The notes under the pieces are model-generated. The model had not been told where the DNA came from and did no database searches. It saw nothing but the letters and a program-made list of their open reading frames with translations. Positions 14,361 to 26,258 of a stretch of 50,266 nt of DNA are shown piece by piece. Source of the stretch: a virus; the IMG/VR virus record IMGVR_UViG_3300023174_000238, positions 1 through 50,266 of that record. One strand, given 5' to 3'. Made by a program: the position numbers and the translations under genes. How positions within the stretch are numbered: the first letter of the stretch is position 1; each line of letters begins with the position of its first letter.

Positions 14361-15071
14361 ATGACTGAAATGGTAAAAGCTATTCTTAATGGAGAATGGG
14401 AAATGGTGCTACCAAAGCACAGAGCAGATAGACCAGAATGGTATACAGACAAAGGCTGGGAAAAACTTAGACTAAGGTCAATGCATGAAGGTCTTGGCAA
14501 GGGAGACGTGATGTATTACGTTGGAGCCGAAGAAGGTGAGATGGCTGCTTTGTGCCAGATGTGGGGAGCAGAGGTTGTTTTGTTTGAACCAAATCCAAAA
14601 GTCTGGTCTCATATGCCAGCAGTATGGGAAGCAAATAATCTAGACTTACCTCTTGCCTGTATTCCTGGATTTGCCTCAGACGAAATTAATGAGCTTGCTA
14701 GGGTTTATAAAAATGAGTTTCCGCCAGAAGCAAACCAAGTTATTGAAGCAGCACATGGATTCAAAGAATTGTATCTTGAAGGTGCTAACTATGGTCAAAT
14801 CACTATTGATTCTTGTGTATATGATTATGGGATTAAGCCACCTACCGCCATTACTTTAGATGTAGAAGGTAGTGAGTGGAAAGTCCTTGGTGGAGCATAC
14901 CACGTTCTTAAAAATTACAAACCAAAGATTTGGTTATCTGGACATCCAGAGTTTATGTTCCATCAGTATGGTAAGTATCTTGCAGAACTTCGTTACTGGC
15001 TTAGAGATGAATTTGGGTACGAAGAAACACTGATTGACTACCAGCACGAGGCTCACCTATACTATGAATGA
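14361..15071 (+). CDS. FkbM-family methyltransferase
   Basis: 236 residues. YYVGAEEGEMAALCQMWG is the SAM-binding glycine strand, VVLFEPNP the acidic strand end, and AITLDVEGSEWKVLGGA near residue 165 is the FkbM hallmark (IDVEGxE). The C-terminus PKIWLSGHPEF fits the family. FkbM enzymes O-methylate sugars or polyketides, so here sugar methylation of the glycan is likely. It starts one base after the previous stop. Confidence 0.85.
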   Translation: MTEMVKAILNGEWEMVLPKHRADRPEWYTDKGWEKLRLRSMHEGLGKGDVMYYVGAEEGEMAALCQMWGAEVVLFEPNPKVWSHMPAVWEANNLDLPLACIPGFASDEINELARVYKNEFPPEANQVIEAAHGFKELYLEGANYGQITIDSCVYDYGIKPPTAITLDVEGSEWKVLGGAYHVLKNYKPKIWLSGHPEFMFHQYGKYLAELRYWLRDEFGYEETLIDYQHEAHLYYE

Positions 15072-15921
15072 TATTAAAGCATATCTATTAGCCGTTGATG
15101 GCAAAAGTTTTCCAGACCATAAATGGGATTTTGGTTTTGTTAAAGAAGCATTTGACAAAAATAAAATAACTTATGAAGAAGTATCGTCACTACCTAAAAC
15201 TGATAAAGCCTTTGTGGTTATTTGTGGTTATGAAAATAGAGGACTAACTGAAGAAATATCTAAAGAACTTAGGAAGATAAATAAAGTAGTTTTATTTATT
15301 ACAGGAGATGAACGTGGTACCTTTAAAGCAAATAAAGTTTTTCATAAAAATATTGATATTTGGGTGCAGTCTCCATATCCTGGAAGACATGATGATTTTA
15401 ATAAAATGCCAATTGGTTGCCCATCACACATAAAAGACAATCTTCCAGAGTATACAATAAAAAAGAATGATGCATTCTTTTCTGGTCAGATTACTCACGA
15501 TAGACGAAAGCAACTTTCAGAAGTTATGCCAACTATTCCAAATGCACTTTTTAATCCCACACCTGGATTTACACAAGGATATGAGCCAAAAGAATACTAT
15601 AAACACATACTTGAGTCTAGGATAACTCCATGTCCAGCAGGTACTTCAACAATTGATTCATTTAGATTTTATGAATCTTTAGAAATGCTATCATTACCAG
15701 TTGGTGATATTAGAAGTTCTAGTAATGAAAAATATAATTTTTGGGATTATTGTTTTGACCAAGTTGTTCCTGTACCTAAGACTGCTAACTGGTATACTTT
15801 ACCAGAGATTATGTTAAAAGAATTACACGACTATCCTGCAAATATGCACAGGGCAGTCAGTTGGTGGATTAGGTATAAAAGAGATTTTGCGTATAAAATT
15901 ATGGAGCAATTAAATGGATAA
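15064..15921 (+). CDS. Exostosin-like (GT47-type) glycosyltransferase
   Basis: 285 residues. The start at 15064 gives an 8-bp overlap (ATGAATGA) with the FkbM gene and is preferred to 15034. Near residue 205, CPAGTSTIDSFRFYESLEM followed by LPV is the exostosin-type motif (SFRxYEaLexGxIPV) that binds the donor. The N-terminal half is a diverged Rossmann fold. Likely a retaining or inverting glycosyltransferase of the operon's glycan. Confidence 0.65.
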   Translation: MNDIKAYLLAVDGKSFPDHKWDFGFVKEAFDKNKITYEEVSSLPKTDKAFVVICGYENRGLTEEISKELRKINKVVLFITGDERGTFKANKVFHKNIDIWVQSPYPGRHDDFNKMPIGCPSHIKDNLPEYTIKKNDAFFSGQITHDRRKQLSEVMPTIPNALFNPTPGFTQGYEPKEYYKHILESRITPCPAGTSTIDSFRFYESLEMLSLPVGDIRSSSNEKYNFWDYCFDQVVPVPKTANWYTLPEIMLKELHDYPANMHRAVSWWIRYKRDFAYKIMEQLNG

Positions 15922-16687
15922 AAAAGATATCACGGTTATATTGGTTACATCAATTATTCCAAGTCACCCAGAAACACATATTGTCGAAGAAACAATTAAA
16001 AGCATTAGACATCACCTACCAAATAGTGAAATCATTCTTCAGATTGACGGTCTTAGAGAAGAACAGGCTCACCGCAAAGAACAGTATGATGAATACAAAA
16101 CAAGAATGCTTTGGAAATGTTTGCACGAATATGAAAATGTTTTACCAATTATTTTTCAAGAACATTCTCACCAAAGCACAATGATGAAACAAACAATTGA
16201 TTTAATCAACACTCCTTTGATGGTTTATATTGAGGGTGATACTCCTTTAGTGATTGATGAACCAATTGACTGGGATGCTTGTGTTGACATTATTGATTCT
16301 GGCAAGGCTAATACCGTTCGTTTTTATCACGAGGCTGTTGTTCCAGAAGCACACGACTGGCTAATGCTAGACATAGTTGGAGATTTCTTACAGACAGTTC
16401 AATGGAGTCAACGTCCGCATCTATCTAAAGTTTCTTACTATAAAGAAATAGTTTTAGCTGATATGCCAGAAAAAACTTTTATTGAAGACTATATGCATAG
16501 CGTTGCCTATGAAGAATACATTATTCCTTGGAGAAATAATAAGTCTAGAGAAGGTTGGGAAAAACATAAACTTTGGATTTATTATCCAAACAAGACAAAT
16601 AACAAACGGTCTTATCACACAGATGGTCGTCAGGGTCTAAAGAAATTTACTGATGATGATATTTCATGGGGATTGACAGAAGCATGA
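15914..16687 (+). CDS. GT-A glycosyltransferase (GT2-like)
   Basis: 257 residues, overlapping its neighbour by 8 bases. ITVILVTSIIPSHPETHIVE is the first GT-A strand with the start-of-fold Pro/Ser loop. PLMVYIEGDTPLV near residue 100 carries the DxD-like EGD metal-binding site. Fold order fits a family-2 glycosyltransferase. Sugar unknown. Confidence 0.7.
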   Translation: MDKKDITVILVTSIIPSHPETHIVEETIKSIRHHLPNSEIILQIDGLREEQAHRKEQYDEYKTRMLWKCLHEYENVLPIIFQEHSHQSTMMKQTIDLINTPLMVYIEGDTPLVIDEPIDWDACVDIIDSGKANTVRFYHEAVVPEAHDWLMLDIVGDFLQTVQWSQRPHLSKVSYYKEIVLADMPEKTFIEDYMHSVAYEEYIIPWRNNKSREGWEKHKLWIYYPNKTNNKRSYHTDGRQGLKKFTDDDISWGLTEA

Positions 16688-17718
16688 GATTAGGAATAAT
16701 TGCAAGAGCAGATAAAACTGGTCTTGGAAATCAAACAAAAGAACTGGTTGATATGTTAAAACCAGACAAGATTCTTCTTATTGACTCTTCACATTTTAAT
16801 GGCAATAAACAACATCCAGAATGGTATGAAGGATATAATGTTCAAACCACTACTGAGGGTTTTGCAACATACTCTGAAGTTGGTGAATTTTTAACTGACA
16901 TAGATGTAGTAATTAGTTGTGAAATATTTTACAGCCACAGACTTTCCAACCTGGCACATAGACGTGGAATAAAAACAATTCTACAATATAACTATGAATT
17001 TTTTGAATACTTTATTCACGAAGGAATTAGGCAGCCACACATATTACTTGGACCAAGTTTATGGAACATAGATAAAATAAGACAAGATTTTGGTAGTCAT
17101 TCTAGAATAATCCATTTGCCACCACCGACATCACCAGAAATATTTGAAGAGGCAAAAAAAATTAATCAAGCTAAGACTCACAAACGAATTCTTCATGTTG
17201 CTGGAAAGAGGGCAAACAATGATAGAAATGGTACGGATATAGTTATTGAAATGCTTAAGTATTCTAAAGCAGATTATGAATTGGTTATTACTAGTCAGAG
17301 TGATTATAATCCAAATTGTGATGACCCTAGACTTACTATAGATAGCAGTAATCCAGATGATAGGTCTGCTCTTTATTCTGGATTTGATTTTATGGTTCTA
17401 CCTCGTAAATATGGTGGGCTATGCCTTCCTATGAACGAAGCTTTGCTAAGTGGACTACCTGTTATTATGACAAATATATCACCTAATAATACCATCCTAC
17501 CTCTGGAATGGCTTGTAGAGGCTTCCTATGACCGCACAATTAACTTTAAAGGTCCAACTGATTCTTACGAGACAGACCCACAGAAATTAGCAGAACTTGT
17601 TGATAACTTTATTAACAACTATAACATTCCAGCAACTAAGCAACAGGCATATGAAATTGGTTATAGTAATTTTGCACCAGATGTATTAAAAGATAAATAT
17701 TTATCTATCATTGGGTAA
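16684..17718 (+). CDS. GT4-family glycosyltransferase (GT-B)
   Basis: 344 residues. Start at the ATG that shares ATGA with the previous stop (16684), preferred to a TTG-led extension at 16666. The N-terminus MRLGIIARADKTGLGNQTKE is the acceptor-domain glycine loop. GLCLPMNEALLSGLPVIMT near residue 240 is the E-x7-E type donor-binding motif of GT4. Last gene of the operon, ending 7 bases before a strong terminator. Confidence 0.85.
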   Translation: MRLGIIARADKTGLGNQTKELVDMLKPDKILLIDSSHFNGNKQHPEWYEGYNVQTTTEGFATYSEVGEFLTDIDVVISCEIFYSHRLSNLAHRRGIKTILQYNYEFFEYFIHEGIRQPHILLGPSLWNIDKIRQDFGSHSRIIHLPPPTSPEIFEEAKKINQAKTHKRILHVAGKRANNDRNGTDIVIEMLKYSKADYELVITSQSDYNPNCDDPRLTIDSSNPDDRSALYSGFDFMVLPRKYGGLCLPMNEALLSGLPVIMTNISPNNTILPLEWLVEASYDRTINFKGPTDSYETDPQKLAELVDNFINNYNIPATKQQAYEIGYSNFAPDVLKDKYLSIIG

Positions 17719-18726: not shown

Positions 18727-19017
18727 TTATTCCTGTTCCATTGTTAGATTTTGCCAAGTGTTAGCCCAATCAACTTTTAATTTATGTCTATTAAATTCTC
18801 TAGATACTTTACCAGCATCCAAATAAACTCCACCCCAAACACCATATTCTTTGCTTGAGATACCTACAGCAAAACACATTTTAGCTACAGGACACATAGA
18901 ACACATTTCATCAATTGCTGGTCTTAGCTCAAGGTCTTCTTCATATTTGTCAAAGAAGAGTTGTGTGTCAAAATCTTTACACTGAGCATCGTTTTTCCAT
19001 TCATCCTTGTGAGCCAT
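18727..19017 (-). CDS. WhiB-family iron-sulfur transcription factor
   Basis: 96 residues. Four cysteines in the WhiB order (Cys13, Cys39, Cys42, Cys48; CSMCPVAKMC) bind a 4Fe-4S cluster. YGVWGGVY is the G[VI]WGG turn that contacts the principal sigma factor. WhiB proteins are almost confined to Actinobacteria and their phages, so this marks the host. A phage copy may redirect host transcription or block superinfection, as TM4 WhiBTM4 does in mycobacteria. The basic C-terminus (FNRHKLK) could touch DNA. Confidence 0.9.
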   Translation of the reverse strand: MAHKDEWKNDAQCKDFDTQLFFDKYEEDLELRPAIDEMCSMCPVAKMCFAVGISSKEYGVWGGVYLDAGKVSREFNRHKLKVDWANTWQNLTMEQE

Positions 19018-20740: not shown

Positions 20741-21283
20741 TTACTCTGCTTTAGCTTTTGGTGTTACGATTGGCTTGGCTGGTGCTGCATCGGCTACAGG
20801 TGCTGCAGCCTTTACAGGTTTTGCATTGTCGTCAATGTGCTTGTGAACATCAACAAGGTCATCGTATGCCACTAGGTGAACATCTTTACCATGTGCCATT
20901 GCTGTACCTGCCATATGTAGGTGGGCTCCAGTACTGGCGGACCCACTTGGTGTCTTTTTACCTCCACCAACTTTACCAATAACTGACTTGCCACCATCAA
21001 GAGGTGAGTCAATTTCAAGGTCTGGCTTTTCTGCAAGGTGTGCATATAGCCAATAGAAACCATCGTCTGAAGACTGCACTAGGCAGTGTCCTAGGACATC
21101 GGTCCAGAAAATCTTCTTAACCTTTCCATCAGTAATAGCCTTGATTGGCTTTAATTCAATTGCTGCTTTTGCTCCCCAGTCAGAACCACGGTGTGGGTGT
21201 TTTCTGTATGAAGCCATGTTTCCGAGTTCATCTCCACGATTTTTTGGGAATGGGTCGAAATATTGTGCTGGTTTAACTGCCAT
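20741..21283 (-). CDS. M23-family peptidase, endolysin
   Basis: 180 residues. HRGSDW (His31, Asp35) and TGAHLHM (HxH) are the zinc ligands of lysostaphin-type M23 endopeptidases, which cut peptidoglycan cross-bridges. GLGHCLVQSS-like and WLYAHLAE strands between them complete the fold. The C-terminal 25 residues are an Ala/Pro/Lys tail without a known cell-wall module. No signal peptide, so release needs a holin. AGAAGGAG precedes the ATG and a 5'-hairpin leader lies upstream. A virion-borne lysin is a possible alternative. Confidence 0.85.
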   Translation of the reverse strand: MAVKPAQYFDPFPKNRGDELGNMASYRKHPHRGSDWGAKAAIELKPIKAITDGKVKKIFWTDVLGHCLVQSSDDGFYWLYAHLAEKPDLEIDSPLDGGKSVIGKVGGGKKTPSGSASTGAHLHMAGTAMAHGKDVHLVAYDDLVDVHKHIDDNAKPVKAAAPVADAAPAKPIVTPKAKAE

Positions 21284-21340: not shown

Positions 21341-21410
21341 GCCTCGCAACAGAGTCGAACTGTTCTCCACGCTTTACAAGAGCGTTGTTTTACCGATAAA
21401 CTAGCAAGGC
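21341..21410 (-). tRNA. tRNA-Thr (UGU)
   Basis: Acceptor GCCTTGC/GCGAGGC (one wobble), D-arm GTTT...AAAC, anticodon stem ACGCT/AGCGT with loop CTTGTAA (anticodon TGT), T-arm AACAG TTCGACT CTGTT. CCA is not encoded. Its first 10 bases overlap the end of the HNH gene. Confidence 0.88.
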
Positions 21411-21829
21411 ATTTTGTTGGTCCATCCGAACTGCTTTGCCGTTTTTCTTCTATGACAATTTGCACAACGAACTTCACATTTTTGTATTTCTTTAACAATA
21501 GACTTTAAACCATTTCTTTTTAAAGTAGATATTGCTTCTTTTTTGGTTCCAGATACATGGTCAAATTCTAAAACTATTGGGTCAGTCTCTCCACAGTCAA
21601 CACATGGATGTAGCATAAGATAGTCAAGAATATAAGCCTCTGCATCTTGTTTTGCTTTTTTTCTATTTTTAGTTATATATATTTTTCTATTTGGGTTGTT
21701 TAAATAATATTTATTATCATACTCTCTTTTACATGGTTTACAGGTTCCTGTATACCCATCTTTTGCAGATGCTCTTTTTTGAAAATCATCTAATGGTTTT
21801 TCTATGTTACATGATATGCATATTTTCAT
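21401..21829 (-). CDS. HNH endonuclease, tRNA-abutting
   Basis: 142 residues. An N-terminal zinc knuckle (CISCNIEKPLDDFQKR... CKPCKREY) is followed by an HNH core: CVDCGETDPIVLEFDHV and CANCHRRK. The pattern fits homing-type HNH nucleases. Its stop codon lies inside the 5' end of tRNA-Thr on the same strand. It has its own leaderless promoter between it and tRNA-Asp, as expected for a self-contained mobile gene. DNA target unknown. Confidence 0.8.
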   Translation of the reverse strand: MKICISCNIEKPLDDFQKRASAKDGYTGTCKPCKREYDNKYYLNNPNRKIYITKNRKKAKQDAEAYILDYLMLHPCVDCGETDPIVLEFDHVSGTKKEAISTLKRNGLKSIVKEIQKCEVRCANCHRRKTAKQFGWTNKMPC

Positions 21830-22274: not shown

Positions 22275-22706
22275 TTACTTTATATAGTTTATTAATTTTA
22301 ACATCGTTTCTGGATTATCCCTTAAAATTCCTAATGCCAAATTACATTCTCTACAAAGTAATCCACGAATACATTTTCCACAAGAGAAACTTCCATCACA
22401 ACAAGAATGGTCGTGGTCAATATTAGTTCCTTCATTTATTTGACAAGCGTGACACTTCCCAGAATATTCAGCAACTAATTCTTCATATCTATATTGAGTT
22501 ATATTATGACGTTTCCAGTTTGGCTTATAGTATGAATTCATTCTTACTTTTTCAGCTTTTTTATCTGGATTAGTGTTGTAATAATTAATTACATAATCAG
22601 TGTGGCATCTTTTGCAAGTGCCCCTACGACCATCTTTATAATTCTTACCTTTTGCAAATAGGTCAATATCCTTTTCAATACCGCATTTTACGCAAATCTT
22701 TGTCAT
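22275..22706 (-). CDS. Recombination endonuclease VII-family nuclease
   Basis: 143 residues. An N-terminal zinc knuckle ([15 protein letters not shown]... CKRCH) precedes the endonuclease VII core: [39 protein letters not shown] and [13 protein letters not shown]. The family resolves Holliday junctions or acts as a homing nuclease. This copy ends 6 bases from tRNA-Asn and has its own leaderless promoter, so a mobile role is favoured. Confidence 0.85.
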
Positions 22707-23322: not shown

Positions 23323-23610
23323 TTACTTCTTAGTTTTTGGTGTTTCTTCTGCTACATCTTTAAGTGCAACTGTTTGACGGAATGCAGCATCAATTTCTGC
23401 TCTGCTTAATTTACCGTCTTCAAGGAATGCAAGGGATAGTAGTTCTACAACTTTGGCTACAGCCATAATACCACCCATAGTGGCACTGAACCAAATAGGA
23501 ATATCAAGACCACTGACCTGACCTGCTACCGAACCTGCACCAATAACTCCTAGGGCTGATGCTACAAATGTAGCAATAATACGTCCAACAACGTTTATCA
23601 ATAGTTTCAT
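23323..23610 (-). CDS. Holin-like membrane protein
   Basis: 95 residues from the ATG coupled by TAATG. Two hydrophobic segments (about 5-25 and 38-60) surround a short Gly/Ser turn, followed by a charged tail (LEDGKLSRAEIDAAFRQ). Size, two-span topology and position next to another small membrane protein suggest a holin or antiholin. No signature residue proves it. Confidence 0.6.
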   Translation of the reverse strand: MKLLINVVGRIIATFVASALGVIGAGSVAGQVSGLDIPIWFSATMGGIMAVAKVVELLSLAFLEDGKLSRAEIDAAFRQTVALKDVAEETPKTKK

Positions 23611-23789
23611 TAGTCTTCCTCCTTTTCTGCTGCGTTTCTTAGTGGGTAGGTAATAATCCATAGACCCATCGTGCCCAGAATTGCCCAGCCTACTACATCT
23701 TTTGCTGAACCCTCAAGGACTAGCCATGCAACGAACATACCTAGAAGGGTCCAGGCTTGACCTAGCATATCATTTAAAAATTTCTTCAT
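23610..23789 (-). CDS. Small membrane protein, holin partner candidate
   Basis: 59 residues from the ATG at 23789, after a strong AAGGAGG site. Two hydrophobic spans (about 10-26 and 34-47) flank a short charged turn, and the tail is acidic (AEKEED). The pair 23789/23610 looks like a holin/antiholin set. They follow the exported PA14 protein gene by one base, so all three are one operon. Confidence 0.65.
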   Translation of the reverse strand: MKKFLNDMLGQAWTLLGMFVAWLVLEGSAKDVVGWAILGTMGLWIITYPLRNAAEKEED

Positions 23790-23790
23790 A

Positions 23791-26235
23791 TTAATTCCTC
23801 CTTCTTGATGTTCCACCAGATGAACCACCTGTTAATGCTCCACCTGATGCTGGTGCTGCTGCTGTTAGGGCTGCCCCTGTAGCTGCGTTGACTGCTGCTC
23901 CAACAGCAACAACTGCTGTTACAACAATCTTTTTAGATTCTTCTCGTATTTTTGGAGACATATCGGCTCCAACGTTACCAATAAAGTTAATTGCATCCAC
24001 AAGAGCTGCTGCTCCTGGAATGGCTGCTAATTCTTTTGAGATTACAATGTCGTCTGCCTGGGCTACTACAAATAAGGCTGCAAGTGCCTGTTCATATTCT
24101 GGTGAGCCTTGCTCTGCTGTTTCAAATATTTGCATTGCTGCTTCTGTAAGTTGTTTTACCTGTGCTTCTGTTAGATTTGTTGCGACTACCGCTTCTAGAT
24201 TAACCTTTGTTAGGTCTTCAATAATCTCTGGTATGTTTGGGTCTCCAGTTGGTTTAGGGGTTGGGTTTGGCTCTGGGGTTGGTTTTGGCTCTTGTGTAGG
24301 TTCTTCTGTTGGTTTAGGTTCTGGCTTTGGGTCTATAATTGGAATTTCTGGATTTGGAAGATTAGTTAATTTTTTAATTGCATTAGCTAGTAATGCGGAA
24401 GCACTAGAAACCACTCCTTCTTGTGCAATTATTTTTGTTGTGACTGATTGTGCTCTGACTATAATTGATTCTACTTTTTGTGTAGCAGTTGATAACTGTA
24501 TTGTTTTTGTATTTAGATTTGTTTCAGTTTGTTGTTTAATTTTAGTTTCATCATCTAATGCATTTTGTAATTGGTCAACTAATGTTATTGTACTATCTAT
24601 GTCTGTCCTTACTTGAGTTAGATTATCTTTAAGCAATTCTAATGCAAGGTTTGCCGATGTTAGGCTAGATTGATTTTGAGCCACTACTAATTGTTGTTGT
24701 GCACAAGATACCCTGGCTTCTTGTAATGATATTTCTGCTTTATTTATTAATTCATCTGAGCTAATTATGCCCCTATTTGCATCAATTTTATCTTGTTCTG
24801 ATTGTGATAAATCTTTTTGTTTTGTTTGCCAAATAGAAACTGCAATATTGTATTCATCTATTGCATTCAAATATGCTGCATTTGTAGTAGATGAAGTTGT
24901 AAGTGATTGAGAATAATTTGATTGTGCTGTTGTTAGTAAAGATTGTTTTTGTTGTAATATTGATAATAATGCTGGGTCTTGTTGATATGTAGGCTGGGCT
25001 GGTTGATTCTTTGTAAGCCAAGATGCTGGTACAATTCCCCAATTTGTTTGTGAAGAATAATACAAGAAGTTACAAGCTCCTCCACCATGCTCATACATCC
25101 ATGCATCAATTGCATATGAGCGTCCTGCTTGTAAGGTAAAGTTATTACTCCACCAACCACCGCAACCTTTGAGTGTCCAGTTATCATTAATAACCATGTT
25201 ATCCAGTGTCATGTACCATCCATCGTCAACATTAGCAAGGAATTGATAATTCATTGTTTCTGGTACTGTTAAGTAGCCTGTGTAGTGAATAAGGATGTTG
25301 TCTCCTCCACACCCCTCAATGTCTCCGCCACCCCAGTCTTTATTTATTTGTGTAACTGTTATTGTTTTGCAATATGTGTATGCACTTTCTGAACGAGTTG
25401 GATAGTTTGGTGTAGCATTTTTATAAATTTTTGCCTGTAATCCATAAACTGTTGCAGGTGAATTTGCTGGATAAACAGCAATAAGATTATTATTATAGTT
25501 AGCCTGTGCAACATCTACAGCATTTTGAGCACTTGTAAGTTGCTGAAGTTTTGTTTGAACATCTGCTAATGACTGATTGTATATGCTTGATTGGTTGTCA
25601 ACTGCGATTCCTTTATTTTGAACATTTGTAACTGAAGTATTATAGTTTAATAATGCAGAGTTATAGGCTATGTTTGCTAAATTAAATTCATTTTCAAATT
25701 GTTGTTTTTGTAAGTTAAAATCATTTACTCTGTTCTGAGAATCAATTATGCTTTGTGTAGCATCATTTAGCTTTTGTGTTTCTGCTTGTAGTGTAAGTGT
25801 CTTTGCTGTTACCACCGAAGATTGAATAATAATTTGATTAGAAATAGTTTCTATACTGTTTTGCTTATTTTGAAGATTTAGTTTAGCATTTTCTAATTGA
25901 GATAAAGCAGATTGAACAACAATTGATTGCTCTTCATTAGCAGCAACTGCTGCATTGAGGTCTACTTGAGTTTGGTCTACAAGGTTCTGTGAGGCTTGTA
26001 GAGACATTTGTAGTTCATTCTTAGATATATTTAGGGCATCTAATTCAGATTGCTGTATTTCTAATTCATTTTGTGCTGTGGCAATTTCTGCTTGTGCAGA
26101 AGCAACTAATGCATCATATTCTGCTTGCGTTATTGCATAGGCAGGTGATGAATAGGCTAGGGGTAAAAGCAATAATAAAATTGCTAGGGTTGAATTTATT
26201 AACTTTTTGATTTTCCTGTTCTCCTCGTTGAACAT
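23791..26235 (-). CDS. Exported PA14/coiled-coil protein
   Basis: 814 residues. A basic start and long hydrophobic run lead to an AYA signal-peptidase site after residue 34. Residues 36-250 and 420-630 are long Gln/Asn/Ser-rich coiled coils. Between them (about 262-395) is a PA14 domain (GLQAKIYKNA, GGGDIEGCGGDN, ANVDDGWYMTLDN, CGGWWSN), a sugar-binding fold with paired Cys. A Pro/Glu/Lys repeat (about 640-670) is followed by a helical region and a C-terminal hydrophobic span. It would be exported and held across the envelope. No homolog recognised; it heads the holin operon. Confidence 0.7.
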   Translation of the reverse strand: MFNEENRKIKKLINSTLAILLLLLPLAYSSPAYAITQAEYDALVASAQAEIATAQNELEIQQSELDALNISKNELQMSLQASQNLVDQTQVDLNAAVAANEEQSIVVQSALSQLENAKLNLQNKQNSIETISNQIIIQSSVVTAKTLTLQAETQKLNDATQSIIDSQNRVNDFNLQKQQFENEFNLANIAYNSALLNYNTSVTNVQNKGIAVDNQSSIYNQSLADVQTKLQQLTSAQNAVDVAQANYNNNLIAVYPANSPATVYGLQAKIYKNATPNYPTRSESAYTYCKTITVTQINKDWGGGDIEGCGGDNILIHYTGYLTVPETMNYQFLANVDDGWYMTLDNMVINDNWTLKGCGGWWSNNFTLQAGRSYAIDAWMYEHGGGACNFLYYSSQTNWGIVPASWLTKNQPAQPTYQQDPALLSILQQKQSLLTTAQSNYSQSLTTSSTTNAAYLNAIDEYNIAVSIWQTKQKDLSQSEQDKIDANRGIISSDELINKAEISLQEARVSCAQQQLVVAQNQSSLTSANLALELLKDNLTQVRTDIDSTITLVDQLQNALDDETKIKQQTETNLNTKTIQLSTATQKVESIIVRAQSVTTKIIAQEGVVSSASALLANAIKKLTNLPNPEIPIIDPKPEPKPTEEPTQEPKPTPEPNPTPKPTGDPNIPEIIEDLTKVNLEAVVATNLTEAQVKQLTEAAMQIFETAEQGSPEYEQALAALFVVAQADDIVISKELAAIPGAAALVDAINFIGNVGADMSPKIREESKKIVVTAVVAVGAAVNAATGAALTAAAPASGGALTGGSSGGTSRRRN

Positions 26236-26243
26236 TGTTCAAC
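26227..26243. promoter_or_regulatory. Perfect palindrome over the start of the PA14 gene
   Basis: GTTGAACA and TGTTCAAC flank a single central base, covering the expected transcription start and the start codon of the PA14 gene. It is a good operator candidate. The GAAC-GTTC core resembles an actinobacterial LexA site but has 3 rather than 4 central bases. Confidence 0.5.
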
Positions 26244-26249
26244 AAATTT

Positions 26250-26258
26250 ATTATAGCA
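26250..26258 (-). promoter_or_regulatory. Extended -10 promoter of the PA14-holin operon
   Basis: TGCTATAAT on the minus strand, with the start near 26243. The leader is only about 8 bases, within the palindrome. Confidence 0.6.

Follow-up and report, generated by a model that had tools for sequence, protein, structure and literature searches.

Layout and export of the surface protein

The virus record analysed here in full (50,266 bases, hereafter the window) contains a long open reading frame, P0001, directly upstream of two small membrane-protein genes. An earlier note made from the sequence had described its product as an exported protein of 814 residues with a PA14 domain, which raises the question of where in the infection such a protein would act and what a phage would gain from it. 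The parts of P0001 on which the answer depends are the following:

23791..26235, (-) strand: ORF of the surface protein P0001, 814 aa, a predicted exported stalked lectin
25042..25446, (-) strand: PA14 lectin head, from a profile match, conserved residues and Foldseek
23794..24237, (-) strand: family-wide C-terminal anchor region, residues 667-814, about 130 aa, from a 101-member alignment

From its N-terminus, P0001 consists of a signal peptide, a 213-aa helix, the PA14 head, a 204-aa helix, a Pro/Glu/Lys linker, the anchor region and a transmembrane (TM) segment. The signal peptide ends in ...LAILLLLLPLAYSSPAYA|ITQ, with the AYA site that had been proposed for it, and instead of a lipobox Cys, which is absent after the signal peptide, it is this AYA site that marks cleavage. 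The two long coiled coils placed by the earlier note on either side of the PA14 domain are borne out by hydrophobic 3.5-residue (heptad) periodicity at residues 36-250 and 415-640, and the Pro/Glu/Lys repeat and C-terminal hydrophobic span that it described lie at residues ~627-668 and 770-788 (KD 1.93, followed by RRRN), respectively. Export is supported across the family: 104 of 113 members begin with a signal-peptide-like sequence, compared with 15% among other ORFs, and 97.5% of family members have a hydrophobic C-terminal segment. The basic tail of the surface protein is weaker evidence for its topology because it partly encodes the Shine-Dalgarno sequence of h1, the next gene, which lies inside the surface gene in 70 of 88 adjacent pairs. 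We consider it very probable that P0001 is displayed on the surface of the infected cell.

A PA14 head on a predicted antiparallel stalk

The PA14 domain was confirmed by profile search and structure prediction, which agree. PF07691 matches residues 264-397 with an E-value of 4.6e-9 and 36.7 bits, above its gathering score of 24, and a GLEYA match stayed below its cut-off. The AF2 model consists of a helix (37-249), PA14 beta strands (252-418), a second helix (421-624) and a disordered linker, with pLDDT >90 over most of the helices, and Foldseek relates the head to PA14 structures with an E-value of 4e-9, its matches including MpPA14, RsgI3, Epa1 and Flo5. The best PDB match is the ectodomain of the anti-sigma factor RsgI3. 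Together, profile match, AF2 and Foldseek support the membrane-anchored PA14 lectin layout. Residues D337-D338 and Trp353 are invariant across 26 relatives, as are the four Cys of the head in the four closest ones. PA14 lectins bind sugar through a DcisD-Ca site, the Asp-Asp pair coordinating both Ca and sugar in MpPA14 (PMC8092209). P0001 has the PA14 fold and the Asp-Asp motif in common with the MpPA14, Flo5 and Epa1 lectins and the RsgI3 PA14 dyad, although these are cellular adhesins or anti-sigma ectodomains and do not carry the family's C-terminal anchor. The head of P0001 may bind a glycan of the host surface. Each of 19 records holds exactly one PA14 domain, always in the surface gene, which speaks against a domain shared with the phage's own tail; with no second PA14 found in these 19 records, nothing suggested either that the head mimics the receptor-binding protein of the phage itself.

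The lengths of the coils before and after PA14 covary (~0/0, 84/65, 119/99, 143/124 and 205-215/200; Spearman 0.90, n=38), a correlation which, given that the 38 PA14-bearing members are related, represents a few independent events rather than 38. That the helix lengths change together suggests an antiparallel arrangement in which both helices would make up a single stalk, with the lectin at the far end; the AF2 model has a pTM of 0.33. The equal-coil rule is broken by members with large N-terminal additions, such as L151 and L176. These two, together with L159 and L187, are very large members of 912-1286 aa whose long N-terminal additions break the rule.

One anchor region carries many ectodomains

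Relatives of the whole P0001 protein were found at 4 loci, and the C-terminal region alone was recovered from at least 136 IMG/VR stretches, in proteins of about 370 to 1290 aa. The ectodomains joined to this region are PA14, fn3, GLEYA-like, SUEL-lectin, coiled coil or unassigned sequence; in a sample of 21 members, seven carried PA14, six fn3 and one a SUEL lectin. These counts come from relatives, which are non-independent samples, and the locus searches gave E-values that are relative to the candidates. The C-terminal region is poorly predicted by AF2 (pLDDT 54). It has no confirmed match in 84,980 bacterial and archaeal genomes, and as such it occurs in none of 50,697 phage records. In one member (L025, 3342-3818) a frameshift, either genuine or an assembly error, splits the surface gene into two ORFs.

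The best viral matches in BFVD (E-value 2.4e-31) are proteins of uncultured Caudovirales labelled 'PA14 domain containing protein' (A0A6J5KND8 and others). They are probably members of this family that had been deposited earlier and named after the domain only, and their entries describe neither function, module nor start codon. A literature search combining PA14 domain, phage and freshwater found nothing. As far as we found, the family, the module and its translation start are new, and the sequences themselves are already deposited. The earlier note had recorded neither the family-wide anchor, the stalk geometry nor the unusual start.

Two small membrane proteins accompany the surface protein

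Downstream of P0001 lie two short genes and, further on, a candidate endolysin:

23610..23789, (-) strand: h1, a two-TM membrane protein of 59 aa and obligate partner, starting one base after the P0001 stop
23323..23610, (-) strand: h2, a two-TM protein of 95 aa, overlapping the h1 stop by one base, weakly holin-like
20741..21283, (-) strand: M23 endopeptidase-like protein, candidate endolysin, near the surface-protein module

The close spacing that the earlier note had reported stands, with h1 one base after the stop and h2 overlapping h1, but its description of both as holin-like is weakly supported. Searched alone, h1 turned up in at least 554 IMG/VR stretches, and each of the 79 newly fetched h1 loci has the constant C-terminal region directly upstream of h1 on the same strand; counted by contig name, ~62 of these 79 contigs had not been fetched by the C-terminal search. 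No h1 was confirmed in the 84,980 bacterial and archaeal genomes, which, together with the lack of a confirmed anchor match there, speaks against a host origin for either, nor was h1 as such found in the 50,697 phage records. It has no significant match to families of known function, and the matches of 13 members at E<=1 include no holin family. Members of the h2 family (93-95 aa) show weak similarity to the phrog_443 holin family (6 of 8 members, best 1.5e-5) and match phrog_26427 more strongly. The latter is labelled as a nuclease, probably wrongly, since a nuclease does not fit a two-TM protein of 80-95 aa.

The h2, surface and h1 genes are contiguous, in an order that is permuted among loci. 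All three are held by 65 of the 75 loci newly fetched in the h2 scan, and the remaining ones lie at the ends of contigs or have broken frames, h2 mostly being accompanied there by an ORF with a signal peptide and coil, so these exceptions do not make h2 an ordinary holin that occurs without the surface protein. The gene upstream of the surface gene differs by clade, being TerL in that of the window and NrdB or others elsewhere, and the linkage is therefore to the module and not to a conserved neighbourhood. M23 relatives lie close to the module at 53 of the 80 loci from the C-terminal region search. Two small genes after TerL in the Streptomyces phage Gilson, gp90 and gp91, were considered as h1 and h2 and bear no resemblance to them. 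The surface protein may form a complex in the membrane with h1 and, probably, h2. None of P0001, h1 and h2 matches an anti-phage defence family of PADLOC-DB (0 matches).

Further genes were noticed by eye at some loci: a small thermonuclease-like (SNase) gene stands between the surface gene and h1 in L043, L044, L046, L068, L070, L075 and L083, and an exported lipoprotein resembling NlpC/P60 is encoded upstream of h2 in L249, L255, L256, L257 and L258.

A probable fusion of surface protein and h1 in phage DSL-LC01

The module in its usual form is missing from the records of cultured phages. The cultured phage DSL-LC01 has h2 together with an exported protein of 944 aa whose last 55 residues are h1-like, and no separate h1 within the stretch read. 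Against the h1 profile this tail scores 15.5 bits, whereas none of 922 other two-TM ORFs exceeds 5.4, and its score was reached by 1 of 2000 class-preserving shuffles; hhalign of the tail with h1 gave a P of 1.5e-5. Alignment of the anchor regions of this protein and the surface family was unconvincing. We regard the DSL-LC01 protein as a probable natural fusion of surface protein and h1, which suggests that the two work together and, with the obligate pairing, makes the link to the small membrane gene stronger than the earlier note knew. From this fusion, the N-terminus of h1 would be cytoplasmic. A near relative of the fusion protein is present in IMG/VR. The 944-aa protein is encoded at 14385-17219, (-) strand, of L006, and a 966-aa counterpart at 1466-4366 of L263 likewise has an h1-like tail.

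Many relatives lack a canonical start codon

The region before the signal peptide of P0001 holds four elements:

26250..26255, (-) strand: extended -10 element (TGc TATAAT) of the gene's own promoter; most relatives have TATAAT in this position
26227..26243, (-) strand: leader hairpin GTTGAAC-AAT-GTTCAAC, adjoining the Shine-Dalgarno sequence
26221..26225, (-) strand: Shine-Dalgarno sequence AGGAG, conserved among relatives
26209..26211, (-) strand: proposed start codon ATC, which is ATT, ATA or ATC in relatives

In 62 of 108 family members, no ATG, GTG or TTG lies downstream of the in-frame stop and ahead of the signal peptide, and an ATT, ATC or ATA stands 3-11 nt after a Shine-Dalgarno sequence. 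Most relatives near TerL or NrdB lack an ATG, GTG or TTG start, and several have a stop codon immediately 5' of the ATT, ATA or ATC. A canonical start combined with a Shine-Dalgarno sequence was found in 10 of 79 surface members versus 53 of 59 h1, 46 of 50 h2, 54 of 56 M23 and 15 of 15 NrdB genes, a contrast that holds against these four families, a few other gene families being low too. The h1 gene begins with ATG in 115 of 117 cases. In the window an ATG at 26235 sits in the loop of the leader hairpin, so that an in-frame ATG is still offered. Because relatives point to a non-AUG start at the place of the ATC, the window's surface gene probably starts there (26211-26209) and would yield a product of 806 aa; the 814 residues of the earlier note hold for the ORF and probably not for the protein made. 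Standard gene callers would mis-start or truncate the surface gene, hiding its signal peptide, and this may be the reason that the family had been overlooked.

No good -35 was found upstream of the TATAAT, and a simple promoter scan did not list the element. The hairpin probably sits at the mRNA's 5' end and folds as RNA with -7 to -8.7 kcal/mol (z -2.2 to -2.6). In the alignment, 93% of its cells are paired versus 39-61% in slid controls, and three pairs have changed on both sides, a number reached by 1 of 500 shuffles. Hairpins of at least 6 bp abutting AGGAG occur at the leader position in 50 of 64 loci and 28 times elsewhere in 1.2 Mb. We favour less the possibility that the repeat is a DNA operator because the spacing of its arms varies from 3 to 11 nt, which fits RNA better. 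Starts at AUU and AUA that follow extended Shine-Dalgarno sequences hold expression low under IF3 control in S. aureus (PMC13009471). A nearly leaderless mRNA that carries a 5' hairpin and starts at an AUU-type codon could give low or timed expression of the surface protein.

The host is most likely an actinobacterium

The large terminase subunit of the window is 56% identical to TerL of Streptomyces phage Gilson, and a further gene bears on the host:

18826..18999, (-) strand: whiB gene (PF02467, E-value 2.5e-13), a marker of an actinobacterial host

A whiB gene is present in 43 of 50 records carrying the surface-protein family, and among 14 control genomes the whiB profile matches Corynebacterium only; from both results, actinobacteria are most likely the hosts of the carrier phages. 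The window also has two small ORFs, at 21401-21829 and 22275-22706 on the (-) strand, that by eye resemble HNH/zinc-finger endonucleases and lie in or beside its tRNA cluster. Free-standing homing endonucleases often sit in or beside tRNA clusters.

Possible roles at the infected-cell surface

The role that we rank first, tentatively and with somewhat less than even confidence, is surface exclusion or receptor masking. The earlier note had suggested a block of adsorption too, beside glycan binding and an anchoring of the envelope for lysis. P0001 would be a type I membrane protein made by the phage, probably late, on the infected actinobacterial cell. Its signal peptide would be cleaved once the protein is exported, the two helices would fold back into a stalk of about 30 nm if straight, with PA14 at the tip, and the P/E/K linker would span the wall, the C-terminal region and TM segment holding the protein in the membrane. 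The head could then cover or crowd the glycans or receptors used for phage attachment, which would keep out a second phage and spare progeny from being lost on debris at lysis. Heads would follow changes of host and receptor, with anchor and partners staying constant.

This proposal is favoured by the swappable lectin-type ectodomains on a constant anchor and by two known systems. PrgA is the surface-exclusion protein of plasmid pCF10, anchored to the cell wall on a long stalk (PMC10588982). Foldseek returned its structure (6z9l) for P0001 over 755 columns, mostly long helices, with an rmsd of 23.6, a match over most of the length but with poor superposition, which makes it an architectural parallel only and shows no sequence homology. 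Both are surface proteins of mobile elements in which a long helical stalk holds a globular domain far from the wall, but the tip of the Enterococcus protein is a putative protease and that of P0001 a PA14 domain; PrgA is wall-anchored and belongs to a conjugative plasmid, whereas P0001 has a TM segment and belongs to a phage and is not a PrgA family member. The second precedent is Llp of T5, an exported receptor-blocking protein that changes form with the receptor and blocks superinfection (PMC4728585). In T5 and BF23, too, the exported protein is encoded by a lytic phage, is made in the infected cell and varies with the receptor, but Llp is a small lipoprotein of a Gram-negative host, encoded beside the receptor-binding gene, without stalk, lectin or partner membrane proteins. 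Against exclusion stand the position of the genes in the lysis/packaging region and the nature of the partners, which resemble lysis proteins more than exclusion proteins.

A broader interpretation, which we find somewhat doubtful, is that of an undescribed envelope system of lytic actinophages, made up of a swappable stalked ectodomain, a constant anchor and two small membrane proteins. Through it the infected cell would sense or block its surroundings in a manner tied to lysis, with the conserved AUU-type start and leader hairpin throttling expression. Freshwater actinobacteria have abundant phages, hardly any of them in culture, and a module as common as this one (at least 554 IMG/VR stretches) offers a concrete target for questions about what these phages do at the host surface during infection; the exchange of heads on a single anchor may reflect the surface glycans that matter.

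The partners and the location also fit a lysis-timing module, which we rank next after exclusion, as a rather doubtful reading, and which is not mutually exclusive with it. Here the stalked ectodomain would sense superinfecting phage, wall state or glycans and act via h1 on h2. The contiguity of the three genes in permuted orders, the h1-like tail joined to the DSL-LC01 protein, the M23 endopeptidase nearby at 53 loci and the weak similarity of h2 to a holin family all point this way, as does the best PDB match of PA14, an anti-sigma ectodomain. The logic would be comparable to that of T4, in which lysis inhibition operates via an exported antiholin (PMC12642591), the exported component, RI, acting on a membrane holin, T. 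We found no relation between the two systems, however, and RI is small; holin T has one TM segment and a periplasmic domain (PMC12642591), and h1 and h2 have two TM segments. Known antiholins look very different from surface proteins whose changing, lectin-like ectodomains bring them to 370-1290 aa; h1, in turn, lacks a holin match, and a signalling domain is absent.

The displayed lectin might instead act in trans by holding on to particles or neighbouring kin cells, which would place new hosts close by when the cell lyses. Heads of the PA14, GLEYA and Flo type are adhesins in bacteria and yeasts, the stalk would keep the head beyond the glycans of its own cell, and the low cell density of freshwater would presumably reward binding. 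Such adhesion leaves h1 and h2 unexplained and, as we know of no precedent for it in a lytic phage, we hold it to be distinctly unlikely. Quite improbable is a lysis helper whose head grips wall glycans and anchors membrane or endolysin for rupture: the lysis neighbourhood and glycan-binding-type heads would suit it, but freely varying head types and stalk helices of anywhere between zero and about 215 aa are unexpected for one conserved wall polymer, and the protein is without a hydrolase domain. Finally, although tail fibres can carry PA14 and coiled coils and the gene follows TerL in the window's clade, a virion protein (tail fibre, which the earlier note had named as the refuting finding, or capsid decoration) is scarcely credible given the signal peptide of nearly all members, the C-terminal TM segment, translational coupling to membrane proteins, a position outside the tail cluster, the varying upstream gene (NrdB, others) and the single PA14 per record, always in the surface gene.
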